A stretch of DNA of 64,000 nucleotides from Ruegeria sp. SCSIO 43209 (GTDB taxonomy: Bacteria > Pseudomonadota > Alphaproteobacteria > Rhodobacterales > Rhodobacteraceae): assembly GCF_019904295.1 (NCBI RefSeq), contig NZ_CP065359.1, positions 2,567,001-2,631,000 of the forward strand, given 5' to 3'. Within the stretch, counting starts at the first letter, position 1, and each line of letters begins with the position of its first letter. A program made the translations under genes and the position numbers. This document shows positions 1-7,955 of the stretch, one piece after another. The notes below the pieces were generated by a model. The model ran no database searches and was not told the DNA's origin. It was given only the letters and a program-made list of their open reading frames with translations.

Positions 1-145
1 ACGCCAGCAACGTTGATTTGCCCGCACCCGAAGGACCGAGTAGCGCGACGCTTTCACCGGGCTGCACCGACAGCGAAACATCTGAAAGAGCTGCCGCACT
101 GGCAAAGTGCTGCGATACCGCGTTGAGTGAAACTACAGGGTTCAT
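1..145 (-). CDS. ABC transporter ATP-binding protein, N-terminal fragment (PhnC-like)
   Basis: Only the first ~48 residues are in the window; the gene continues past base 1. The reverse-strand translation begins MNPVVSLNAVSQHFA and contains a complete Walker A motif, GPSGAGKST, at about residues 38-46, so this is an ABC ATPase. Its ATG overlaps the stop of the upstream binding-protein gene (ATGA), which indicates translational coupling and a shared transporter. Because that binding protein is of the PhnD type, a PhnC-like ATPase is the likely partner and a permease gene should follow outside the window. The substrate is not known; the MntR neighbour makes a metal-related substrate as plausible as a phosphorus one. 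Confidence 0.8.
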   Translation of the reverse strand, partial: MNPVVSLNAVSQHFASAAALSDVSLSVQPGESVALLGPSGAGKSTLLA

Positions 146-1002
146 TTCAGAAACCCATACCGCCGCGCAGTTTCGCGCACGCCTTCGTAAACCGATGGAT
201 CTGCAGGGAGATAGCCGTCCGGGCCGTAAAGGTAAGCCAGCAGGTGACGGTTCTCACTCTCGTTGAGGCGCAGCATGGTTTCAATGAACTTTGCCTGCAG
301 CCCGGCGTCCAGATCAGGGCGGGCAATGATTGCGTGGCTGGGAATTTGTTCTGATTCCGCGAGCACCCTGATCTCGGCCTGCTGATCCGGAGTCAGGTAG
401 AGATCTGCATACTGGCTCGCGCCCGCAGCATCGACCAGTCCGTTGGCCATGGCCTGCATCGCTTGCTGATAACCACCGGCAAAAAATTTCTGCCCGAAAA
501 AACTGTCAGCATCGCCCGTGCCCGAGAACAGCCCGGCGCGCACAAACAGATCAAGCGGATAGATGTAACCGGATTCCGAGACCGGATCAGAAAAGGCAAT
601 GTCATGTCCCCGGAGATCGGCCAACGTTTCGATACCGCTGTCACGTCGCACGAAGACACGGCCCGAATAGCTGGGTTGCCCGCGATAAACCTCGGACAAC
701 AGCGGTACGGCGCCGATCTGGTCTTCGGCCAACACAAAGGGCAACGCTCCCATGAACGAGATATCGGCATCACCGTTGCGCAACGCCTCGACGGCAGCAG
801 CGTGGTCGAACGTGACAAACCCCGTGACCGGGACGCCCATCTGCTCTGAAAGCCAGCCGGTGATGACGTTGATGTCACCCAACAGCTTTTCGGGGTTCTC
901 CTGCGGGATGAAGGCCAGCTTCAGCCCCTGGTCAGTTGCAGCCATTACGGGCAGGGCTGCAGATGCGGCTGCAGCACCCAGAAAATTGCGGCGCGACAAC
1001 AT
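142..1002 (-). CDS. PhnD-type periplasmic substrate-binding protein of an ABC transporter
   Basis: A 286-residue exported binding protein. The N-terminus carries a twin-arginine-like signal (SRRNFLGAAAASAALP, cleavage probably after VMAA). The body resembles the PhnD / phosphate-phosphite-phosphonate binding family: an early LAFIPQENPEKL segment, then DADISFMGALPFVLA and a DLRGHDIAFSDPVSESGYIYP stretch typical of the ligand cleft. The length is normal for the family. It overlaps the upstream peroxidase gene (its ATG lies in that gene's TGA region) and the downstream ATPase gene, so the three form one operon. PhnD-type proteins are known for oxyanions, but this operon faces an mntR gene and starts with a di-haem peroxidase, so the real ligand could be different. 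Family assignment is firm; substrate is inference. Confidence 0.8.
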   Translation of the reverse strand: MLSRRNFLGAAAASAALPVMAATDQGLKLAFIPQENPEKLLGDINVITGWLSEQMGVPVTGFVTFDHAAAVEALRNGDADISFMGALPFVLAEDQIGAVPLLSEVYRGQPSYSGRVFVRRDSGIETLADLRGHDIAFSDPVSESGYIYPLDLFVRAGLFSGTGDADSFFGQKFFAGGYQQAMQAMANGLVDAAGASQYADLYLTPDQQAEIRVLAESEQIPSHAIIARPDLDAGLQAKFIETMLRLNESENRHLLAYLYGPDGYLPADPSVYEGVRETARRYGFLK

Positions 1003-2855
1003 CAGAACATCCTCTCGTCAATTTCGGCCTGCATGGCCTTGAACAGTTCCCACTGGCGGGTGGCTTCGGTCCAGTTTCCTTCGGCGCTGGCATCGCCAAC
1101 CGCTCGCAGGATCGCGGCGAATTCGTAGATTTCGGGCTTGGCGTTCTGATTGACCATGACACTGGCATCCGCCGCCAGATCAGGAGCTACCGTGTCGATC
1201 AGAACCGCTATGTTTTCGGCATCCTGCATCGGCAGCAGGGTATCGAGCGTGCTGGCGAATGTTGTCAGCTCCTCCCAGGACAAGCGGAATACGCTGTTGC
1301 GACCCTCGAATACTTGATAGGGTTCTTCACCGTCTCCAACAGCTTCGACGTAGGCCGTCAGATCTGCGCGCTGTGCTTCGTCCAAACCCAAATTTTTGGT
1401 ATCATTGAACCAGTCAACAACGCTGGCCAGCGTCGGCAGCGATCCGTCATGCATGTAAGGTGCAGTGAAATTGACGTTGCGCAGCGTCGGGGTTTCGAAC
1501 GCAGAAGCCGTGCCGCCGGGGAATGGTGGTTCAGCGCTGCCGATGTCGTAGGTCAGACCATCGCGGAACTGACGGTCAGGCGTGTGACACGAAGCGCAGG
1601 ACTTGTCACCAAGTCCTGCAAATTTGGTGTTGAATAGCACCTCCCCGCGCTTGGCGTCATCTGACGCCAGATCCGTCAGCTTACCGGACCGATCGATCTT
1701 TGGGTTGGGAAGAAAGTCGAACTGTTTGACATAGGCTTCCAGCGCGTCCAGTTGGAACGGCGTTGGTTCCTTTCCCGCGAATTCGGTCACAATCACATTT
1801 CGGATGAACCGGCGCAGGCTGGGTTCGCGCCCGTCGCGGCCATAAGGTGCGGTAAAGCGGATGCCGCGCATGGAAGGCGTATCCAAGTGATCATCGGTCC
1901 GATCATTGAACATTGGATTGAAGAACGAACCGTCCACATCCATCCCACCCGGATGGGATGACAGGCCGGGAATGAAGAAATCCCGGTTCACGTCGGAGCG
2001 GTTGTGGCAGGTCGAGCAGGCGATGCCTAACTCGCGCGCCGGGCCGCCGAAGATTTCAGGGCTGTCGAACAGCATGTCGCCATAGGCCACCAGCGGTAGA
2101 TTGGCTTCATCCTCACCCGCCTCCTCAAACTGAAGAACCAGCCGTGGCAGCTGCGCCTGATCTCCGATGTTTGACCCTGGCGGCAGCGTGGCGGGCATTG
2201 TGATTTGTTCGCCGGAAAGCACAACTGTTTCAGGCAGCGGTGTTAACTTGTCGCGTTGGGCATACTCGGATGGCAGATAGTTGGCACGAATATAGGCAGC
2301 GACAATGGCCTGAGCTTCTGCAAATTGGTCGGCATCCACCGTTTGTGCACCATTGCCCAGTACTCCTGCGCTGCCAAGGGTGGAGTTCAGAACCAGCCAT
2401 GCCCGGCCCAGATCGCGAGCCGCCGACGCATCCGCAGCCTTGATACCATCTTCGAATGCGCGGAACAGAGCTGCCGCTTGCGCAACCTCGCGTGCCGCTT
2501 CAGGCTGACCCAACGCGGTCTTTGCGACATCCAGATGGCGCAGGATTCCCTCAGCAATGGCAATTGTGCTTGCTTCGAACAGCGCCTGGAGATCTTCGGC
2601 TTGCATAGCTTGGTTGATCGCAAGCGCCTCTTTGTCGGAAACGCGTGACAATGGAGCGACCTGAATGTCACTGCCAGGTGCGGGCGAGGTCCAACTCCTC
2701 TCAATTTCACCCCAGGGAACCGGGGTTAGATTTCCCATGAACAAGGTCAGTCGATACGCGGCAGCGCGCGGAGCCCAAGGAGATTCTTCAATCGCCGTGG
2801 CATCGGCGATCACTGGCAATGCGCAAAGAAGTGTGGACGCTATTAGATACTTCAT
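1002..2855 (-). CDS. MauG/CcpA-like di-haem cytochrome c peroxidase with a long N-terminal domain
   Basis: A 617-residue periplasmic protein with a signal peptide at residues 1-20. Two haem-binding motifs are visible, CSTCH at about 280-284 and CASCH at about 420-424. The segments TPSMRGIRFTAPYGRDGREPS and ETPTLRNVNFTAPYMHDGS are the paired TPSLR...APYMHDGS signatures of di-haem peroxidases and MauG. The catalytic part therefore begins near residue 250. The preceding ~210 residues are mostly helical and unlike ordinary bacterial peroxidases, and a further ~110 residues follow the peroxidase region. First gene of a tightly overlapping operon with a PhnD-type binding protein and an ABC ATPase. 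A DtxR-like palindrome lies just upstream of the start. Peroxide removal or oxidation of a metal or ligand for uptake are both possible; the role is not established. Confidence 0.85.
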   Translation of the reverse strand: MKYLIASTLLCALPVIADATAIEESPWAPRAAAYRLTLFMGNLTPVPWGEIERSWTSPAPGSDIQVAPLSRVSDKEALAINQAMQAEDLQALFEASTIAIAEGILRHLDVAKTALGQPEAAREVAQAAALFRAFEDGIKAADASAARDLGRAWLVLNSTLGSAGVLGNGAQTVDADQFAEAQAIVAAYIRANYLPSEYAQRDKLTPLPETVVLSGEQITMPATLPPGSNIGDQAQLPRLVLQFEEAGEDEANLPLVAYGDMLFDSPEIFGGPARELGIACSTCHNRSDVNRDFFIPGLSSHPGGMDVDGSFFNPMFNDRTDDHLDTPSMRGIRFTAPYGRDGREPSLRRFIRNVIVTEFAGKEPTPFQLDALEAYVKQFDFLPNPKIDRSGKLTDLASDDAKRGEVLFNTKFAGLGDKSCASCHTPDRQFRDGLTYDIGSAEPPFPGGTASAFETPTLRNVNFTAPYMHDGSLPTLASVVDWFNDTKNLGLDEAQRADLTAYVEAVGDGEEPYQVFEGRNSVFRLSWEELTTFASTLDTLLPMQDAENIAVLIDTVAPDLAADASVMVNQNAKPEIYEFAAILRAVGDASAEGNWTEATRQWELFKAMQAEIDERMF

Positions 2856-2867
2856 AGCTCTGTCTAT

Positions 2868-2886
2868 TAAAGTTAGCCTTGTCTAA
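2868..2886. promoter_or_regulatory. Candidate MntR/DtxR-type operator
   Basis: The plus strand reads TAAAGTTAGCCTTGTCTAA. On the minus strand it is TTAGACAAGGCTAACTTTA, which matches the classic DtxR/IdeR consensus (TTAGGTTAGGCTAACCTAA) at most positions, and its core has TTAG...CTAA dyad symmetry. It lies 13 bp upstream of the peroxidase start. A TTGACA-like -35 box on the minus strand (2910-2915) is followed by an AT-rich -10 candidate overlapping the upper edge of this site, so binding would block the peroxidase operon promoter. The mntR start is 86 bp to the right. The consensus is established for DtxR and IdeR; use by this MntR is inferred. Confidence 0.5.
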
Positions 2887-2971
2887 TTTATTGATGAAGG
2901 CATGCTCATTGTCAAGTTCGGCTTTCAGGTGCATACACTAGTGACTGGATTACCGACCTAATCGTGAGCCG

Positions 2972-3424
2972 ATGACTGAAACGACACCGCAAGATTCAGA
3001 TCGTACTATTGACACTCAGGCGAGTGGATTTGAGGCTGTGCGACAGGCCCACCAAAGCGAAATGGTTGAAGACTACGTTGAACTTATTGCGGAGTTGATC
3101 CATCAGAATGGCTCGGCGCGCCCGGTCGAAATAGCCGAGCGGTTGGGCGTAACCCAACCTACGGTTTCGAAGAATTTGGCCCGTTTGAAACGAGAAGGTT
3201 TCATAGAACAAATTCCCTACCGCTCACTTCAACTGACCGATGCCGGGCGTCAATTGGCGGAAGCTTGTAGAAGGCGTCACCGAATTGTCGTGGATTTCCT
3301 GATCGCCTTGGGTGTTTCAAAGGAAGTCGCAGAGCATGATGCTGAAGGTATTGAGCATCATGTAAGCGAAGAGACTCTTGCAGTTTTCAAAGGGTTCGTT
3401 AGGCGGACTGAGGAAACAAAGTAG
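2972..3424 (+). CDS. mntR: MntR-like DtxR-family metal-dependent regulator
   Basis: A 150-residue regulator very similar in layout to E. coli MntR. The winged helix spans about residues 45-95 with the recognition helix in VTQPTVSKNLARLKREGFIE. The C-terminal part contains SRRHR-like RRRHRIVVDFLIALGVS and DAEGIEHHVSEETL, which match the family's Mn(II)-binding and dimerisation segment (EHH, HVSEETL). In the family, Mn(II) binding makes the protein a repressor of Mn uptake and sometimes an activator of efflux. Here it diverges from the peroxidase/PhnD-type ABC operon, with a DtxR-like palindrome in the 116-bp gap. No mntH or sitABCD gene is in the window, so the divergent operon is the best candidate target. 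Confidence 0.85.
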   Translation: MTETTPQDSDRTIDTQASGFEAVRQAHQSEMVEDYVELIAELIHQNGSARPVEIAERLGVTQPTVSKNLARLKREGFIEQIPYRSLQLTDAGRQLAEACRRRHRIVVDFLIALGVSKEVAEHDAEGIEHHVSEETLAVFKGFVRRTEETK

Positions 3425-3623
3425 AAACTAAAAACCTAAGTTGTGCTGGCGAATTCTGGCACTCTTAGTTTTAGAAAGACTAAGACCACTTAAACCTTTG
3501 TTGGGCCGTTGCACTAGCCCCGCACGAACCCTTGTCGCATCTGAAAAGCGAAAATTGAGCGGGTTTAATGATTGAATCTTTTCCCAAGCAGCCAAGGTAA
3601 TAATCGGTCTAGCTCACTTATTT

Positions 3624-3875
3624 TCATTGGGGATCGAAACCTTTAGCGGCAGTGGCCTTACTACAGCAGCTATCCCCCAACTGAATTGGCGGACACGGTA
3701 CAGTCGCGTAGGAACAAAAGACACAGCAATCGCCTTCCAACGGTTTCAAAACTGCCTCACATGATTTGCATTCATAAAACCACTGGCACGAGTCAGTTGG
3801 CATTTTCTCGGTTTCAACGTGCCCACACCGAGGGCAGGTCAAAATGCTATCGAGCACCACAGTTTGATTTGTCAT
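3624..3875 (-). CDS. GDCCVxC-domain protein, small Cys-rich
   Basis: An 83-residue protein dense in cysteines: CPRCGH near residue 14, SCQWFYECKSC in the middle, then the signature GDCCVFCSYATVPCPP, and a terminal SCC. The GDCCVxC family is known as a small protein often found beside mercury-resistance genes and sometimes as a selenoprotein; here every signature position is a standard Cys codon. It starts 4 bp after the stop of the merT-like gene, so the two are co-transcribed under the MerR-type promoter. Metal chaperoning or sequestration is a reasonable guess, but the molecular role is not established. CxxC pairs suggest bound zinc or mercury. Confidence 0.75.
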   Translation of the reverse strand: MTNQTVVLDSILTCPRCGHVETEKMPTDSCQWFYECKSCEAVLKPLEGDCCVFCSYATVPCPPIQLGDSCCSKATAAKGFDPQ

Positions 3876-3879
3876 TGTC

Positions 3880-4203
3880 TCACATCTGCATGATTAGATA
3901 GTCGTTGATTTGAGCCTTATTGAACACGATGACCCATGCCAACGCGGTAGTCGCCGTGCTTCCGACAAGCCACCATTTCAGATTTGCCAACGTCCCGTTT
4001 AGATGCGCTAAGAACCACGAAACCGCGACCAGCGCTGTTGAGACGGCGAGAACATAGTAGCTTGCCGCCGCTATTTTTCCGAATACTGCCAACCAACTGC
4101 CGCCCAAGCCTAACAACATCATGGCCATTGGAAGAACACAGCATGTTGCGACGCCCAGAGCTGAAACCGATCCCAAGTAGCTGAGGTTCACGTATTTCTT
4201 CAT
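3880..4203 (-). CDS. MerT-like mercuric ion transport protein
   Basis: A 107-residue inner-membrane protein with three predicted helices. Helix 1 carries a vicinal cysteine pair (ATCCVLPM, residues 21-22), the hallmark through which MerT and MerF hand Hg(II) across the membrane. The second, cytoplasmic cysteine pair of classical MerT is missing, so it is a MerT-like variant rather than a standard MerT (116 residues). It is preceded by GGGAGC as a ribosome site and by the MerR-type promoter at 4257-4287. Upstream and divergent is the merR-like gene; downstream is the GDCCVxC gene. No merP or merA is nearby, so uptake would depend on a reductase elsewhere, or the protein serves another thiophilic metal. 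Confidence 0.7.
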   Translation of the reverse strand: MKKYVNLSYLGSVSALGVATCCVLPMAMMLLGLGGSWLAVFGKIAAASYYVLAVSTALVAVSWFLAHLNGTLANLKWWLVGSTATTALAWVIVFNKAQINDYLIMQM

Positions 4204-4256
4204 CTTTTGCTCCCGAGATGCTCGATTTGATTGTGTTGAAGCACCGGTATTCAGAG

Positions 4257-4287
4257 CGTATAACTCCTGTAGTAACTACAGGATCAA
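4257..4287 (-). promoter_or_regulatory. MerR-type promoter and operator of the merT-like operon
   Basis: On the minus strand a -35 box TTGATC (4282-4287) and a -10 box TATACG (4257-4262) are separated by 19 bp. Between them lies a perfect dyad, TCCTGTAGT-A-ACTACAGGA on the plus strand (4265-4283). An over-long 19-20 bp spacer with the dyad inside is the established hallmark of promoters that MerR-family proteins activate by twisting the DNA. The site sits between the divergent merR-like and merT-like genes. Confidence 0.85.
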
Positions 4288-4302
4288 GTGGAGGCACTTC
4301 AC

Positions 4303-4701
4303 ATGATTGCGATAGGTGAGGCTTCCCGGCAATCCGGGGTTGGCATAGAAACCATCCGCTACTACGAACGCGAAGGTATCGTACCAAGACCCGTGCGAGC
4401 TCTGAACAATCGTCGCCTCTATGCAGCAAGCGATGTGGGAAGACTTCGATTTTTGAAGAGGTGCCGCGACCTGGGATTTCCTCTCCCAGACGCAAAGGCG
4501 CTTTTAGAGCTGTCAGAAGGAAGTGCCGAAGACTGCTGGTCAGTGAAAGAACTGGCCGAGGCGCATATTGCCAGCGTTCGAAGCAAGATTGATGAGCTCA
4601 GACGTCTGGAGCGTGCCTTGAGTGAGCTTACTGCCAATTGTGATAGCGGTAATGTTCACTGCCCGATGCTGCAAAGCCTGCGAACGATGGATGATATCTG
4701 A
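4303..4701 (+). CDS. merR: MerR-family metal-responsive transcription regulator
   Basis: 132 residues from the ATG at 4303, chosen over a GTG 15 bp upstream because GGAGG sits 8 bp before it. The N-terminal winged helix reads IGEASRQSGVGIETIRYYEREGIV, followed by the RRLYAASDVGRLRFLKRCRDLGF segment of the family. Three cysteines lie where MerR binds Hg(II): one in EDCWSV and two in NCDSGNVHCPML, although the C-terminal loop differs from the usual spacing. It diverges from the merT-like operon across a perfect MerR operator. Hg(II) is the likely inducer; a related thiophilic ion is possible. Confidence 0.85.
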   Translation: MIAIGEASRQSGVGIETIRYYEREGIVPRPVRALNNRRLYAASDVGRLRFLKRCRDLGFPLPDAKALLELSEGSAEDCWSVKELAEAHIASVRSKIDELRRLERALSELTANCDSGNVHCPMLQSLRTMDDI

Positions 4702-4804
4702 CTCTGGCCACCGGGCGGAAGCTCAGAGTCTGAGATTTGGCCAGATCAGGTCAGACCAAGGTCTGTGGTGCGGTAACAGATTGTAGTTCATAGTCGATTT
4801 CACG

Positions 4805-6208
4805 ATGAGAGCGAAAGTAACTGACCTGACGATTGGCAATTGGTCGTTGTCGCGAGTCTTTCTTGCGGCCAGTATCTTCGTGATGGGTACTGCTACCGCA
4901 ATCGTTGGGGTCTGGGTGTCTAATCGAATTCAGAACGCAGTCGTGCAAAACTCCGCCAACTCCGCAGCGCTGTATATGGAAAGCGTAGTTTCCCCGCTCA
5001 GCCAGGAATTGGCACATGGCGACCGCCTTTCTGAGCAGGCGAGCCTGGCTCTGGACGAGATTTTCATGACCCAGCCAATGCGTGACCGTATCGTTTCCTA
5101 CAAATTCTGGAAGCAAGGCGGTGTGATTGCGCATGCCTCGGATACAGACATCATAGGAAACCGTTTCAATCCAACGGATGATTTAAGGCGAGCGTGGAGC
5201 GGAGATATCTCCGGCTCTTTCGAAGAGCTTGATCATGCCGAGAGCGCCGCCGAGGCGGCATTGGGGATACCACTGCTTGAAGTTTACAGCCCCATCCGCG
5301 AACTCTGGTCCGGCGAAATCATCGCAGTTGCGGAGTTCTACGAAAGAGCTGACCAGCTTGAGTTAGACTTAGCCAAGGCTAGGCGAACAAGTTGGTTGGT
5401 CGTCGGCTCCGCATTTCTGGCAAGTACTATTGTTCTGTATTCCATTGTCGCAATTGGCGACAAAACAATTCGACGACAGGGGTCTCTTCTTAAACAGCGG
5501 TTGAAAGAAAGTGAGAAGATGGCTGAGCAGAATGCGCTGCTGCGGTCGCGTGTGGTCGAGGCGTCGGAAAGATATACCACGCAAACAGATCGGTTCCTCA
5601 AGAATCTTGGAGCTGAGCTACATGATGGCCCTGCGCAATACCTGTCGCTCGCCGCCCTTAGGCTGGAGGCGGCGTTTTCCAAAGAGTCGGAAAGGCCTAA
5701 AGAGGCAGTGGAAATTCAGCAGTCTTTGCAAAAATCGCTGGCTGAAATTCGTGCAATTTCGCGAGGGCTGTCCGCGCCAGATATCGATAGCCTGTCACTC
5801 GTCGATGTTGTGAAGAGAGCCGTAGAGGATCACGCCGAACACAGCCCGTTGCGACCGGATATTTCATTCCTGGGTAGCCAGGCCCCGGAGTTGTCATTGT
5901 CCGACAAACTGTGCGTTTTTCGGTTCCTCCAGGAAACGCTTTCCAATGCCGCTAGATATGCTCCAGCTTCCAAGTGCACTGTTATCGCTGAGGCGCAGAA
6001 CGACCGCATAGTTGTAAAGATCACAGACGACGGACCAGGATTTGACAGGTCAGAAGAAACCGCGTTGCGAGACGATGGTGGCCAGGGGCTTATGGGCTTG
6101 CGAGATCGGGTCGAGAGCATTGGTGGCAGGTTCGACGTCGCATCGAGACCGGGCGAAGGCACCACCATAGCTATGACACTATTTCCCAGAAAGTTAGGCA
6201 CATCATGA
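4805..6208 (+). CDS. NarL-type sensor histidine kinase
   Basis: A 467-residue membrane sensor kinase. A first TM helix lies at about 17-38, a ~155-residue periplasmic sensor region follows, and a second TM lies at about 196-216. A coiled-coil linker leads to the HisKA_3 dimerisation motif ELHDGPAQYLSLAALRLEA with His273 as phosphate acceptor. The HATPase part contains QETLSNAARYA (N box), TDDGPGFD (G1) and GQGLMGLRDRVESIGG (G2), so it looks catalytically complete. Its stop overlaps the ATG of the response-regulator gene (ATGA). No sensor ligand is evident. It follows the mer-like locus but a separate signal is likely. Confidence 0.9.
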   Translation: MRAKVTDLTIGNWSLSRVFLAASIFVMGTATAIVGVWVSNRIQNAVVQNSANSAALYMESVVSPLSQELAHGDRLSEQASLALDEIFMTQPMRDRIVSYKFWKQGGVIAHASDTDIIGNRFNPTDDLRRAWSGDISGSFEELDHAESAAEAALGIPLLEVYSPIRELWSGEIIAVAEFYERADQLELDLAKARRTSWLVVGSAFLASTIVLYSIVAIGDKTIRRQGSLLKQRLKESEKMAEQNALLRSRVVEASERYTTQTDRFLKNLGAELHDGPAQYLSLAALRLEAAFSKESERPKEAVEIQQSLQKSLAEIRAISRGLSAPDIDSLSLVDVVKRAVEDHAEHSPLRPDISFLGSQAPELSLSDKLCVFRFLQETLSNAARYAPASKCTVIAEAQNDRIVVKITDDGPGFDRSEETALRDDGGQGLMGLRDRVESIGGRFDVASRPGEGTTIAMTLFPRKLGTS

Positions 6209-6852
6209 CTACATCTGTCGTAATAGCCGATGATCACCCGATATTCAGGGATGGTTTGCAGCGCACGTTGGATGAAGCCGATGGCTTCGAAGTTTTAGCC
6301 GCTGGGTCCAGTGCTGAAGAGGCAGTATCGCTGGTCGGCACGCATCAGCCGGACATAGCTATTCTTGACCTCTCGATGCCCGGTGGCGGGATAAGCGCGA
6401 CACGTAAAATCGCGGCGATGGCAAATCCACCTGTCATTGCAATCTTGACAGTCTCAGAGAACAGCGGCGATGTCGCGGACGCCTTGGAGGCGGGTGCGAT
6501 TGGGTACATTGTGAAGGGAGTAACCGCAAGCGAACTAACCGCTTCTTTACGCAGCATCGCCGCAGGTGAAGGGTTCGTTTCTCCTGGCTTGGCCTCGCGG
6601 GTACTTCTTCAAATCAACGCTGACACCGGCATGTCTGTTAACAGCAGCATTCTAGATGACCTTACACATCGTGAGGAAGAAATACTGAGACGTGTGGCCA
6701 AAGGACTGAGTAATCGTGAAATCGCTGACGAGTTAGACCTCCAGGAAAAGACCGTGAAGCACTACATGACCGCGGTCCTGTCCAAGCTTCATGCGCGAAA
6801 TCGGGTAGAGGCCGCGCTCATTGCACATGATGTTTGGAACAAGGGAGAATAG
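6205..6852 (+). CDS. LuxR/NarL-family response regulator
   Basis: A 215-residue response regulator. The receiver domain shows the acidic pair D9-D10, the phosphorylation site Asp55 in AILDLSMPGG, and the conserved Lys in YIVKGVTASEL near residue 107. The C-terminal LuxR-type helix-turn-helix reads LTHREEEILRRVAKGLSNREIADELDLQEKTVKHYM. It is translationally coupled to the upstream kinase by a 4-bp overlap and is its obvious partner. The next gene is convergent (Asp/Arg-repeat protein), so its targets cannot be read from operon structure. Confidence 0.92.
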   Translation: MTTSVVIADDHPIFRDGLQRTLDEADGFEVLAAGSSAEEAVSLVGTHQPDIAILDLSMPGGGISATRKIAAMANPPVIAILTVSENSGDVADALEAGAIGYIVKGVTASELTASLRSIAAGEGFVSPGLASRVLLQINADTGMSVNSSILDDLTHREEEILRRVAKGLSNREIADELDLQEKTVKHYMTAVLSKLHARNRVEAALIAHDVWNKGE

Positions 6853-6926
6853 CTGCGGTCTCTTTGACGACTATGGCGACCTCTCACTAAGAGAAGCCGC
6901 CAACGATTATCGACTGAAGTTGCTGT

Positions 6927-7796
6927 TCAGTTAGCAACCGACTGTAACCTCCGGCGATCAGAGGCCGTTGCGTTTCTTTCGACAACAGTCCGGTTGTACG
7001 GGTCTTTCAACTCGTAACGCCCAAACTCGATCTCCTCTTTCCAACCATTGGCATAATTCACTTCGATATTGTTGCCTTGGCGTTCGATTTTCGTGGGTCG
7101 ACTTCCAGCAGTGCCGCCTTGCCCAGATGAGCGTACATTTTCGATTGAGATACCATTCGCCAAGGACCGAAGCCTTGAAACGTCAGCGCCGGTCGCGGCC
7201 CGCTCCTCAACAGTTCGGTTCTGAGCATTCTTTCTCTCATACCGCCCGTTTTCGATCTCTTCCTTGGTTCCGTCCGAGTAACGCACCTCAATGCCGTTGG
7301 CGTTCGTTTCGACCTTTGTTATCCCAGCCGAACCCGACGATTTGCCCCCTGAATTAGACTTATCCTTCTTTCCGCTGCCCTTATTGGAGCGTTTGGAGTC
7401 ATCATCGTCATTATCGTCATCATCATCGTCGTCGCGAGCACTTTTTCCTGATCCCGAATTGTCGTCCCGGTCATCATCTCTGTCGTCGTCTCGATCATCG
7501 TCTCTATCGTCATCACGATCATCATCTCGGTCGCCACCACGGCCGCTATTACCCGACCCCGAATTATCATCCCGATCGTCGTCGCGATCATCATCCCTGT
7601 CATCGTCACGATCATCATCCCTGTCATCGTCACGATCATCCCCGTCTTTCCCTTTGCCGCTTTTGGCAAAGGCATATGACGGTTCAAAAAGTAGGCGACC
7701 ATCCTTATCAAAGGTTGGCACATAAGGCGTCGCGGCAATCAACGAAGCCAACGCCGCGGTACTTAGAAGTTGACCCAGCTTTCTTTGAATTTTCAT
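6927..7796 (-). CDS. Secreted Asp/Arg-repeat protein with a duplicated C-terminal domain
   Basis: 289 residues from the ATG at 7796, which has GGAGG 6-7 bp upstream; a longer reading frame would need a TTG. A signal peptide covers roughly 1-24. Residues 53-113 are two blocks of RDDD tetrapeptide repeats separated by a Ser/Gly/Asn linker, followed by a nearly pure Asp run (122-133) and a Lys/Ser/Gly linker. Two copies of a ~55-residue domain close the protein (about 159-213 and 235-289); both read I-E-V-x-Y-x-[DN]-G-x-K-E-E-I-E-x-G-R-Y-E and end in a V-E-R/RLxSxAN tail. I know no function for this architecture. The acidic repeats suggest binding of calcium or other cations at the cell surface, which is inference. 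Convergent with the two-component pair and beside a CDF transporter gene. Confidence 0.75.
   Translation of the reverse strand: MKIQRKLGQLLSTAALASLIAATPYVPTFDKDGRLLFEPSYAFAKSGKGKDGDDRDDDRDDDRDDDRDDDRDDDRDDNSGSGNSGRGGDRDDDRDDDRDDDRDDDRDDDRDDNSGSGKSARDDDDDDDNDDDDSKRSNKGSGKKDKSNSGGKSSGSAGITKVETNANGIEVRYSDGTKEEIENGRYERKNAQNRTVEERAATGADVSRLRSLANGISIENVRSSGQGGTAGSRPTKIERQGNNIEVNYANGWKEEIEFGRYELKDPYNRTVVERNATASDRRRLQSVAN
7398..7646 (-). repeat. 12-bp tandem coding repeat (RDDD units)
   Basis: Low-complexity tandem DNA with a 12-bp period encoding RDDD, arranged in two blocks around a Ser/Gly/Asn linker that itself occurs twice (DDNSGSG). On the plus strand it appears as alternating gatcatcc / gtcatcgt units. 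Such arrays change length by slippage, so copy number may vary between strains. Confidence 0.85.
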
Positions 7797-7955
7797 TTTC
7801 GCCTCCAATTTTGATCGACACGCTTCGTGACATTGGAGACAGGCTACTACCGGTCCGACTTTCCCACATCGGGCTTAGGTCTGACGAATTTCAAGCCGAA
7901 CGTCTTAATCAGATCAGTCAAACCAATAGATTTTTTGCAGAACCAAATGAGCAGT

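Follow-up and report, generated by a model that had tools for sequence, protein, structure and literature searches.

Which substrate is imported by an ATP-binding cassette (ABC) transporter with a PhnD-type solute-binding protein (SBP), when its genes share an operon with a di-haem peroxidase gene and face mntR, the gene for a manganese-type regulator? The question is raised by a locus at one end of a 64,000-nucleotide stretch of DNA, in the following termed the window, which corresponds to C1:2567001-2631000 (contig NZ_CP065359.1) of the 4.6-Mb genome of Ruegeria sp. SCSIO 43209. We consider it probable that the block is a self-contained uptake module for manganese, repressed by MntR and built around a PhnD-type SBP that has become adapted to a metal. 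Judged from the comparisons reported below, its assignment as a manganese-controlled import module is well supported. The following elements make up the locus (window coordinates unless stated otherwise).

2972-3424, plus strand: mntR, manganese-type DtxR-family regulator, 150 amino acids (NF008273, solved relatives, metal ligands)
2887-2915, minus strand: probable promoter TTGACA-17-AATAAA, -10 overlapped by the box (by eye)
2869-2890, no strand assigned: MntR-box-like palindrome AAAGTTAGCCTTGTCTAATTTA, letters of the plus strand (locus comparison, matrix score)
1002-2855, minus strand: di-haem (MauG/CcP-like) peroxidase, 617 amino acids (PF03150, two CXXCH)
142-1002, minus strand: PhnD-type SBP, 286 amino acids (PF12974, pocket residues, model)
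1-145, minus strand: start of the ABC ATPase gene, 256 amino acids, whole gene at C1:2566375-2567145 (PF00005)
C1:2565632-2566378, just outside the window, minus strand: permease, 248 amino acids, which completes the operon (PF00528)

Gene calls and family matches agree with the initial annotation in that mntR diverges from the genes for the peroxidase, the SBP and the ATPase, a run now extended by the permease gene. Neighbouring operon genes overlap, as had been noted. The description of all overlaps as ATGA is slightly off, because this holds for the SBP/ATPase junction while peroxidase and SBP genes meet in TGATG (1 nt). ATPase and permease genes overlap in TTGA or TGATG, according to the start chosen for the permease.

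The gene arrangement is conserved across many genera

In a family sample of 295 genomes, up to four candidates from each genome were evaluated with a peroxidase criterion of E <= 1e-30. The peroxidase is present in at least 15 of these genomes, a lower bound because of the limited number of candidates, and the order mntR/peroxidase-SBP-ATPase-permease is kept in all 15 (the source genome and 14 others). A second set, the named loci, comprises the best 80 of 139 peroxidase relatives from a scan of 84,980 species genomes. Here, a divergent mntR is found at 78 loci, the SBP at 78, the ATPase at 77 and the permease at 74. All four partners are absent from locus L104; the remaining misses are mntR in L103 and genes lost at contig ends. 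The two sets are not independent, since ten of the 14 family loci recur among the named ones, and the 45 genus names represented include some of metagenome-assembled genomes (MAGs) with a doubtful name. Conservation of the arrangement across genomes is far beyond chance. The concern that it might be unique to this genome, with homologues residing in phosphonate loci, is thus not borne out: the neighbourhood recurs in many genera, and phnG, phnH, phnI or phnJ were found at 0/80 named loci within up to 6 kb on each side (E 1e-6).

MntR and its probable operator

The regulator reaches 207.1 bits with NF008273 (cut-off 153), and its best solved relative is MntR 2h09 (E 6.6e-42). Residues D34, E37, H103, E125, E128 and H129, identified by alignment to MntR 1on1 and taken by us to be the six manganese-site ligands of the Bacillus subtilis MntR type, are conserved in 79/79 MntR proteins. 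A palindrome close to AAAGTTAGCCnnGGCTAACTTT occurs between mntR and the peroxidase gene in 15/15 family gaps and in 78/78 named gaps, the latter result being partly circular because the consensus derives from the family gaps. The gap palindromes match 12-16 of the 16 consensus letters, compared with 8-11 when each gap was shuffled once (simple shuffle of base pairs). The 78 named sites represent 39 distinct ones, each of which is preceded by TTGACA. In the window, a weight matrix built from sites of related loci gives 32.0 for positions 2869-2890 and 6.2 for the next best site.

The box is placed over a candidate promoter recognized by eye, with TTGACA at 2910-2915 and, at 17-nt spacing, AATAAA at 2887-2892 as a plausible -10 element; a consensus promoter scan of 2800-3650 found no promoter. 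The proposal of a DtxR/IdeR-like box lying over the likely promoter stands: the site overlaps the plausible -10 and is present in every named gap. Taken together with the six conserved ligands, the comparison supports MntR control of the operon. In the source genome, the pattern with fewer than three mismatches occurs only once, namely in the mntR-peroxidase gap, so that the module looks like the only MntR target besides possibly mntR itself, in a scan that would miss sites of another form. Three further places have exactly three mismatches; the reversed-pattern control yielded 16 per strand. Locus L103 carries the palindrome (22.8) at 5963-5984, immediately before a peroxidase-SBP pair without an adjacent mntR.

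The SBP has exchanged its oxyanion pocket

By family the SBP is a relative of phosphorus oxyanion binders. It matches PF12974 with 191.3 bits, passes the TIGR01098 subfamily cut-off (146.6 vs 112.05), and its nearest solved relatives bind phosphite, hypophosphite, phosphonate or arsenic. All of this would be expected of an ordinary PhnCDE-type oxyanion or phosphonate importer that came under MntR control by chance. The binding site itself argues otherwise. For PhnD/PtxB-type SBPs, an STS-H oxyanion motif and a capping residue are described in Bisson et al. 2017 (PMC5700983). In the module's SBP this motif is lost, with a glutamate, E143, in its midst: where oxyanion binders have Y, STS, H and a capping Y/D, the module has H67, S-E143-S, Y178 and H223, all invariant. 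The SBP also stays far under the TIGR03431 PhnD equivalog cut-off (146 bits vs 261.1), no phnG/H/I/J genes of C-P lyase were found within up to 6 kb on each side at the 80 named loci, and a separate, true phn locus resides elsewhere in the source genome. We therefore regard a conventional oxyanion importer as very improbable.

The resulting pocket comprises H67/Y112/S142-E143-S144/Y178/H223. Among these, the invariant replacements H67, S-E143-S, Y178 and H223 are of the kind seen in metal sites and follow one another as the ligands of transferrin do, and in a structural search the SBP model resembles transferrin lobes, a fold-level similarity that is weighed below. The putative metal-adapted pocket is a new finding, and the exchange of residues provides a structural reason for the link to a metal. 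The SBP carries a twin-arginine signal by motif and is probably exported in folded form via the twin-arginine translocation (Tat) system.

The di-haem peroxidase

The operon begins with the gene for a protein that matches PF03150 (43.6 bits, cut-off 25.6) and meets no NCBIfam cut-off; it is probably periplasmic, with a signal peptide recognized by eye. Its nearest named relative, with 98% identity, comes from a Ruegeria. Both CXXCH haem motifs (C280-C283-H284 and C420-C423-H424) are conserved in 81/81 sequences, E358 is invariant and a PY(M/F)HDG element is present. The N- and C-terminal extensions are helical in a model with a mean predicted local distance difference test (pLDDT) score of 54.5, in which the haem part is unreliable. 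The sixth ligand of the C-terminal haem is Tyr in MauG and MbnH and Met in CcP; at the position of a Tyr in the solved di-haem enzyme 6e1c, the module protein has F483 (81/81), as judged by alignment only.

The leading position of the peroxidase gene would also fit a periplasmic peroxide-defence or protein-maturation system, in which the peroxidase does the actual work and the importer supplies a cofactor or product. Manganese scarcity would then be the trigger because manganese-dependent defence fails. The relatives of the peroxidase are MauG- and MbnH-type enzymes, which modify partner proteins, and at locus L104 the peroxidase occurs without mntR or PhnD-type SBP beside an NMT1-like SBP. 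On the other hand, a pocket of the metal type in an operon of four constant genes suggests a single substrate, and the invariant F483 disfavours MauG-type chemistry if the 6e1c Tyr is the haem ligand. Such a system is in our view improbable. L104 itself stems from an Anderseniella MAG, where the peroxidase gene lies downstream of a gene for an NMT1_3-type binding protein (4454-7854).

Partners of mntR in other genomes

A survey of the 295 genomes, in which 12 candidates per genome were scored and the gap to a facing partner was limited to 600 bases, yielded 58 mntR genes above the cut-off in 50 genomes. Their partners are mntH (27), the module (15), a pair of genes for a multicopper oxidase (MCO) and a ZIP-like permease (5), and an adjoining mntABC(D) (3). 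A 28th mntR facing mntH, in G085, exceeds the limit with a gap of 639 bases. Four of the remaining genes are found at module remnants, one beside a P-type ATPase gene and two without such a partner nearby. At the remnants (L071, L072, L076, L078), mntR and the box are retained next to what is left of the peroxidase, about 61 residues, and no SBP, ATPase or permease match was found within the 12 kb examined; in L071 a P-type ATPase gene adjoins the remnant.

The matrix was applied to 28 distinct genes of the 43 module-free mntR loci. Scores above 20 were obtained for mntABCD of G004, mntH of G291 and G191 (the Nramp match of the latter being split in two pieces), the five MCO-ZIP loci, the second mntR of G048 and the four remnant loci. 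G015 and G050 (mntABC type) and mntH of G093 score 13-16, with the G050 site located between mntR and the importer genes and not before mntR. Ten other mntH loci and two lone mntR genes (G115, G154) remain below 7. In a tree of MntR (51 rows), one clade (support 98/97) unites MntR proteins partnered with the module, with MCO-ZIP or, in two cases, with mntH; the other 11 mntH rows fall outside it. This mixture indicates that a single regulator lineage has changed partners. One genome, G258, carries both the mntH and the module arrangement, each with its own mntR.

At the MCO-ZIP loci (L077 6562-8912, L079 3518-5850, L080 3518-5922, L082 6534-8953, L203 1535-3750), MntR faces a two-gene operon for the oxidase and the permease, and a box like that of the module is present. 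With a score of 33.7, the ZIP-like protein that was tested narrowly misses the Pfam cut-off of 35.1. The pair possibly represents a second oxidase-plus-transporter manganese system.

Mobility and neighbouring genes

Peroxidase genes that are at least 98% identical form five locus groups by single linkage, the first of which spans six genus names. Among 72,556 plasmid records there are 85 matches, and query coverage reaches 80% or more in only 17 of them; the plasmid is classed as conjugative or mobilizable in 76 of the 85 cases. On the two plasmids whose neighbourhoods were read, the module lies beside genes for a P-type ATPase, SCO and PCu(A)C, and on one of them also ZIP genes, so the module appears to travel in metal-related regions. 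Stretches around the 80 named loci contain SCO-like (34), M23 (29) and PCuAC (11) genes. In L007, genes for SCO, DsbB, DsbA, PCu(A)C, SCO and an M23 peptidase follow downstream of the operon (1000-5777).

These neighbours raise the alternative that the cargo is a different metal, such as Fe(III), Cu or Co, or a complex of a metal, and that the module is MntR-controlled because this cargo is wanted or dangerous at low manganese. Sites composed of Tyr, His and Glu are equally suited to Fe(III) and Mn(III), and the likeness of the SBP model to transferrin lobes points in the same direction. However, the partners of mntR elsewhere are mostly manganese importers, and, in the stretches covered, neighbours of the copper-chaperone type occur at only part of the 80 loci. 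We judge this alternative unlikely.

Within the window, the region adjoining mntR (3624-4701) is a small mercury-like cassette consisting of a GDCCVxC (seleno)protein-like gene, a gene for a weakly MerT-like membrane protein and a divergent gene for a MerR-type regulator. Further away, at 6927-7808, a protein with long DDRDD-type acidic repeats and without a Pfam match is encoded between a response-regulator-like gene and a cation-efflux (CDF) gene.

Classical manganese importers and points against a manganese importer

It had been remarked that the window holds no classical manganese importer. This is correct, as the source genome has no Nramp match and both of its ZnuA-family proteins are encoded outside the window. 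The accompanying hint that no such importer is at hand fails genome-wide, because a sitABCD locus resides on the same contig; a znu locus is located on C4 (both loci named from family matches and reading of the proteins). Among the 15 module genomes, ABC-3 permeases (E <= 1e-20) number two or three in nine, one in five and none in one. Six of them (G089, G170, G195, G208, G223, G267) lack Nramp and have at most one ABC-3 permease, compared with 35 of the 280 genomes without module. When only genomes with MntR are considered, Nramp is present in 1/15 with and 26/35 without the module (p 1.8e-5).

Several observations weigh against a manganese importer. The sitABCD locus of the source genome lies at about 3.0 Mb of C1, and a module-type box was not found in the 10 kb around it. 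Two or more ABC-3 permeases in 9/15 module genomes mean that the module is often not the sole route, and the lower frequency of Nramp with the module is not significant across the full set of 295 genomes (1/15 vs 52/280, p 0.49). With the matrix, 11 of the 13 scanned mntH loci score below 17 and ten of these below 7, so only a subclade of MntR links module and mntH. In the SBP model, the blocks around E143 and Y178 are poorly determined (means 53 and 55), and the resemblance to transferrin is at the level of the fold, from a search with this one PhnD-fold model. Finally, the module occurs on mobile replicons near copper and heavy-metal genes, which makes another metal possible.

A working model and its relation to known systems

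Under the manganese importer that we favour, Mn(II)-loaded MntR would bind the palindrome over the promoter and shut the operon off at manganese sufficiency. When manganese is scarce, the ABC importer would be made, and the SBP, with its predicted metal pocket of His67, Tyr112, Glu143, Tyr178 and His223, would capture manganese, either as an ion or in a small complex, and pass it to permease and ATPase. The peroxidase would most likely act on the same metal in the periplasm, for example by supplying the Tyr/His/Glu site with Mn(III) made from Mn(II), or would clear peroxide there; its role is the weakest step of the model. The initial annotation had envisaged manganese-controlled import linked to periplasmic redox chemistry: MntR control, linkage in many genera and the non-phosphonate context agree with it, while the link between peroxidase and transport is one that we infer. 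A more specific version, a transferrin-style, MntR-repressed Mn(III) importer in which the peroxidase oxidizes Mn(II) and the SBP binds Mn(III) for ABC import, is possible though rather doubtful. Its SBP would offer two Tyr and two His as well as a Glu of its own in the place of the anion, and the ligand would be free Mn(III) or the Mn(III) complexes of seawater. In that case, the MntR-linked MCO-ZIP pair would be a second, independent form of oxidise-then-import.

With PhnCDE, PtxABC and HtxBCD the module shares the SBP, ATPase and permease families and the overall SBP fold, but it has H67, SES, Y178 and H223 for the oxyanion-binding residues, is MntR-controlled, includes a peroxidase and has no C-P lyase genes that were found nearby. 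AioX and ArrX likewise employ the PhnD fold for a non-phosphorus ligand; they have been solved with arsenite or arsenate, whereas the module's pocket gains His, Glu and Tyr. SitABCD/MntABC and MntH resemble it in regulator family, a mostly divergent layout and, in part of the MntR tree, a related operator. In contrast to SitABCD/MntABC, the SBP belongs to PF12974 and not to the unrelated PF01297, and a haem enzyme is part of the operon; the permease, too, is of PF00528 and not PF00950, so that classical manganese ABC importer families are absent from the module. The enzyme is like MauG, MbnH and bacterial CcP in its two c-type haem motifs, the PY(M/F)HDG element and the invariant Glu, and differs in its 617 residues with helical extensions and in Phe for the 6e1c Tyr. 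EfeUOB, Fet3-Ftr1 and FtrABCD are oxidase-coupled iron uptake systems built from protein families other than those of the module. They pair an oxidase or peroxidase with a metal permease, a coupling that the module may share. None of the literature titles and abstract openings covered names the system; the alphaproteobacterial manganese and iron regulons reportedly treated by Rodionov et al. in 2006 might mention the operon.

If the manganese importer is real, PhnD-type proteins, usually annotated as phosphonate binders, would include a metal-binding branch with four residues as its hallmark, and a mobile manganese-uptake system unlike MntH or SitABCD would be present in marine Rhodobacterales and related bacteria. 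Coupling to the peroxidase, if true, would parallel for manganese what oxidase-linked systems do for iron, and would offer a possible way in for Mn(III).

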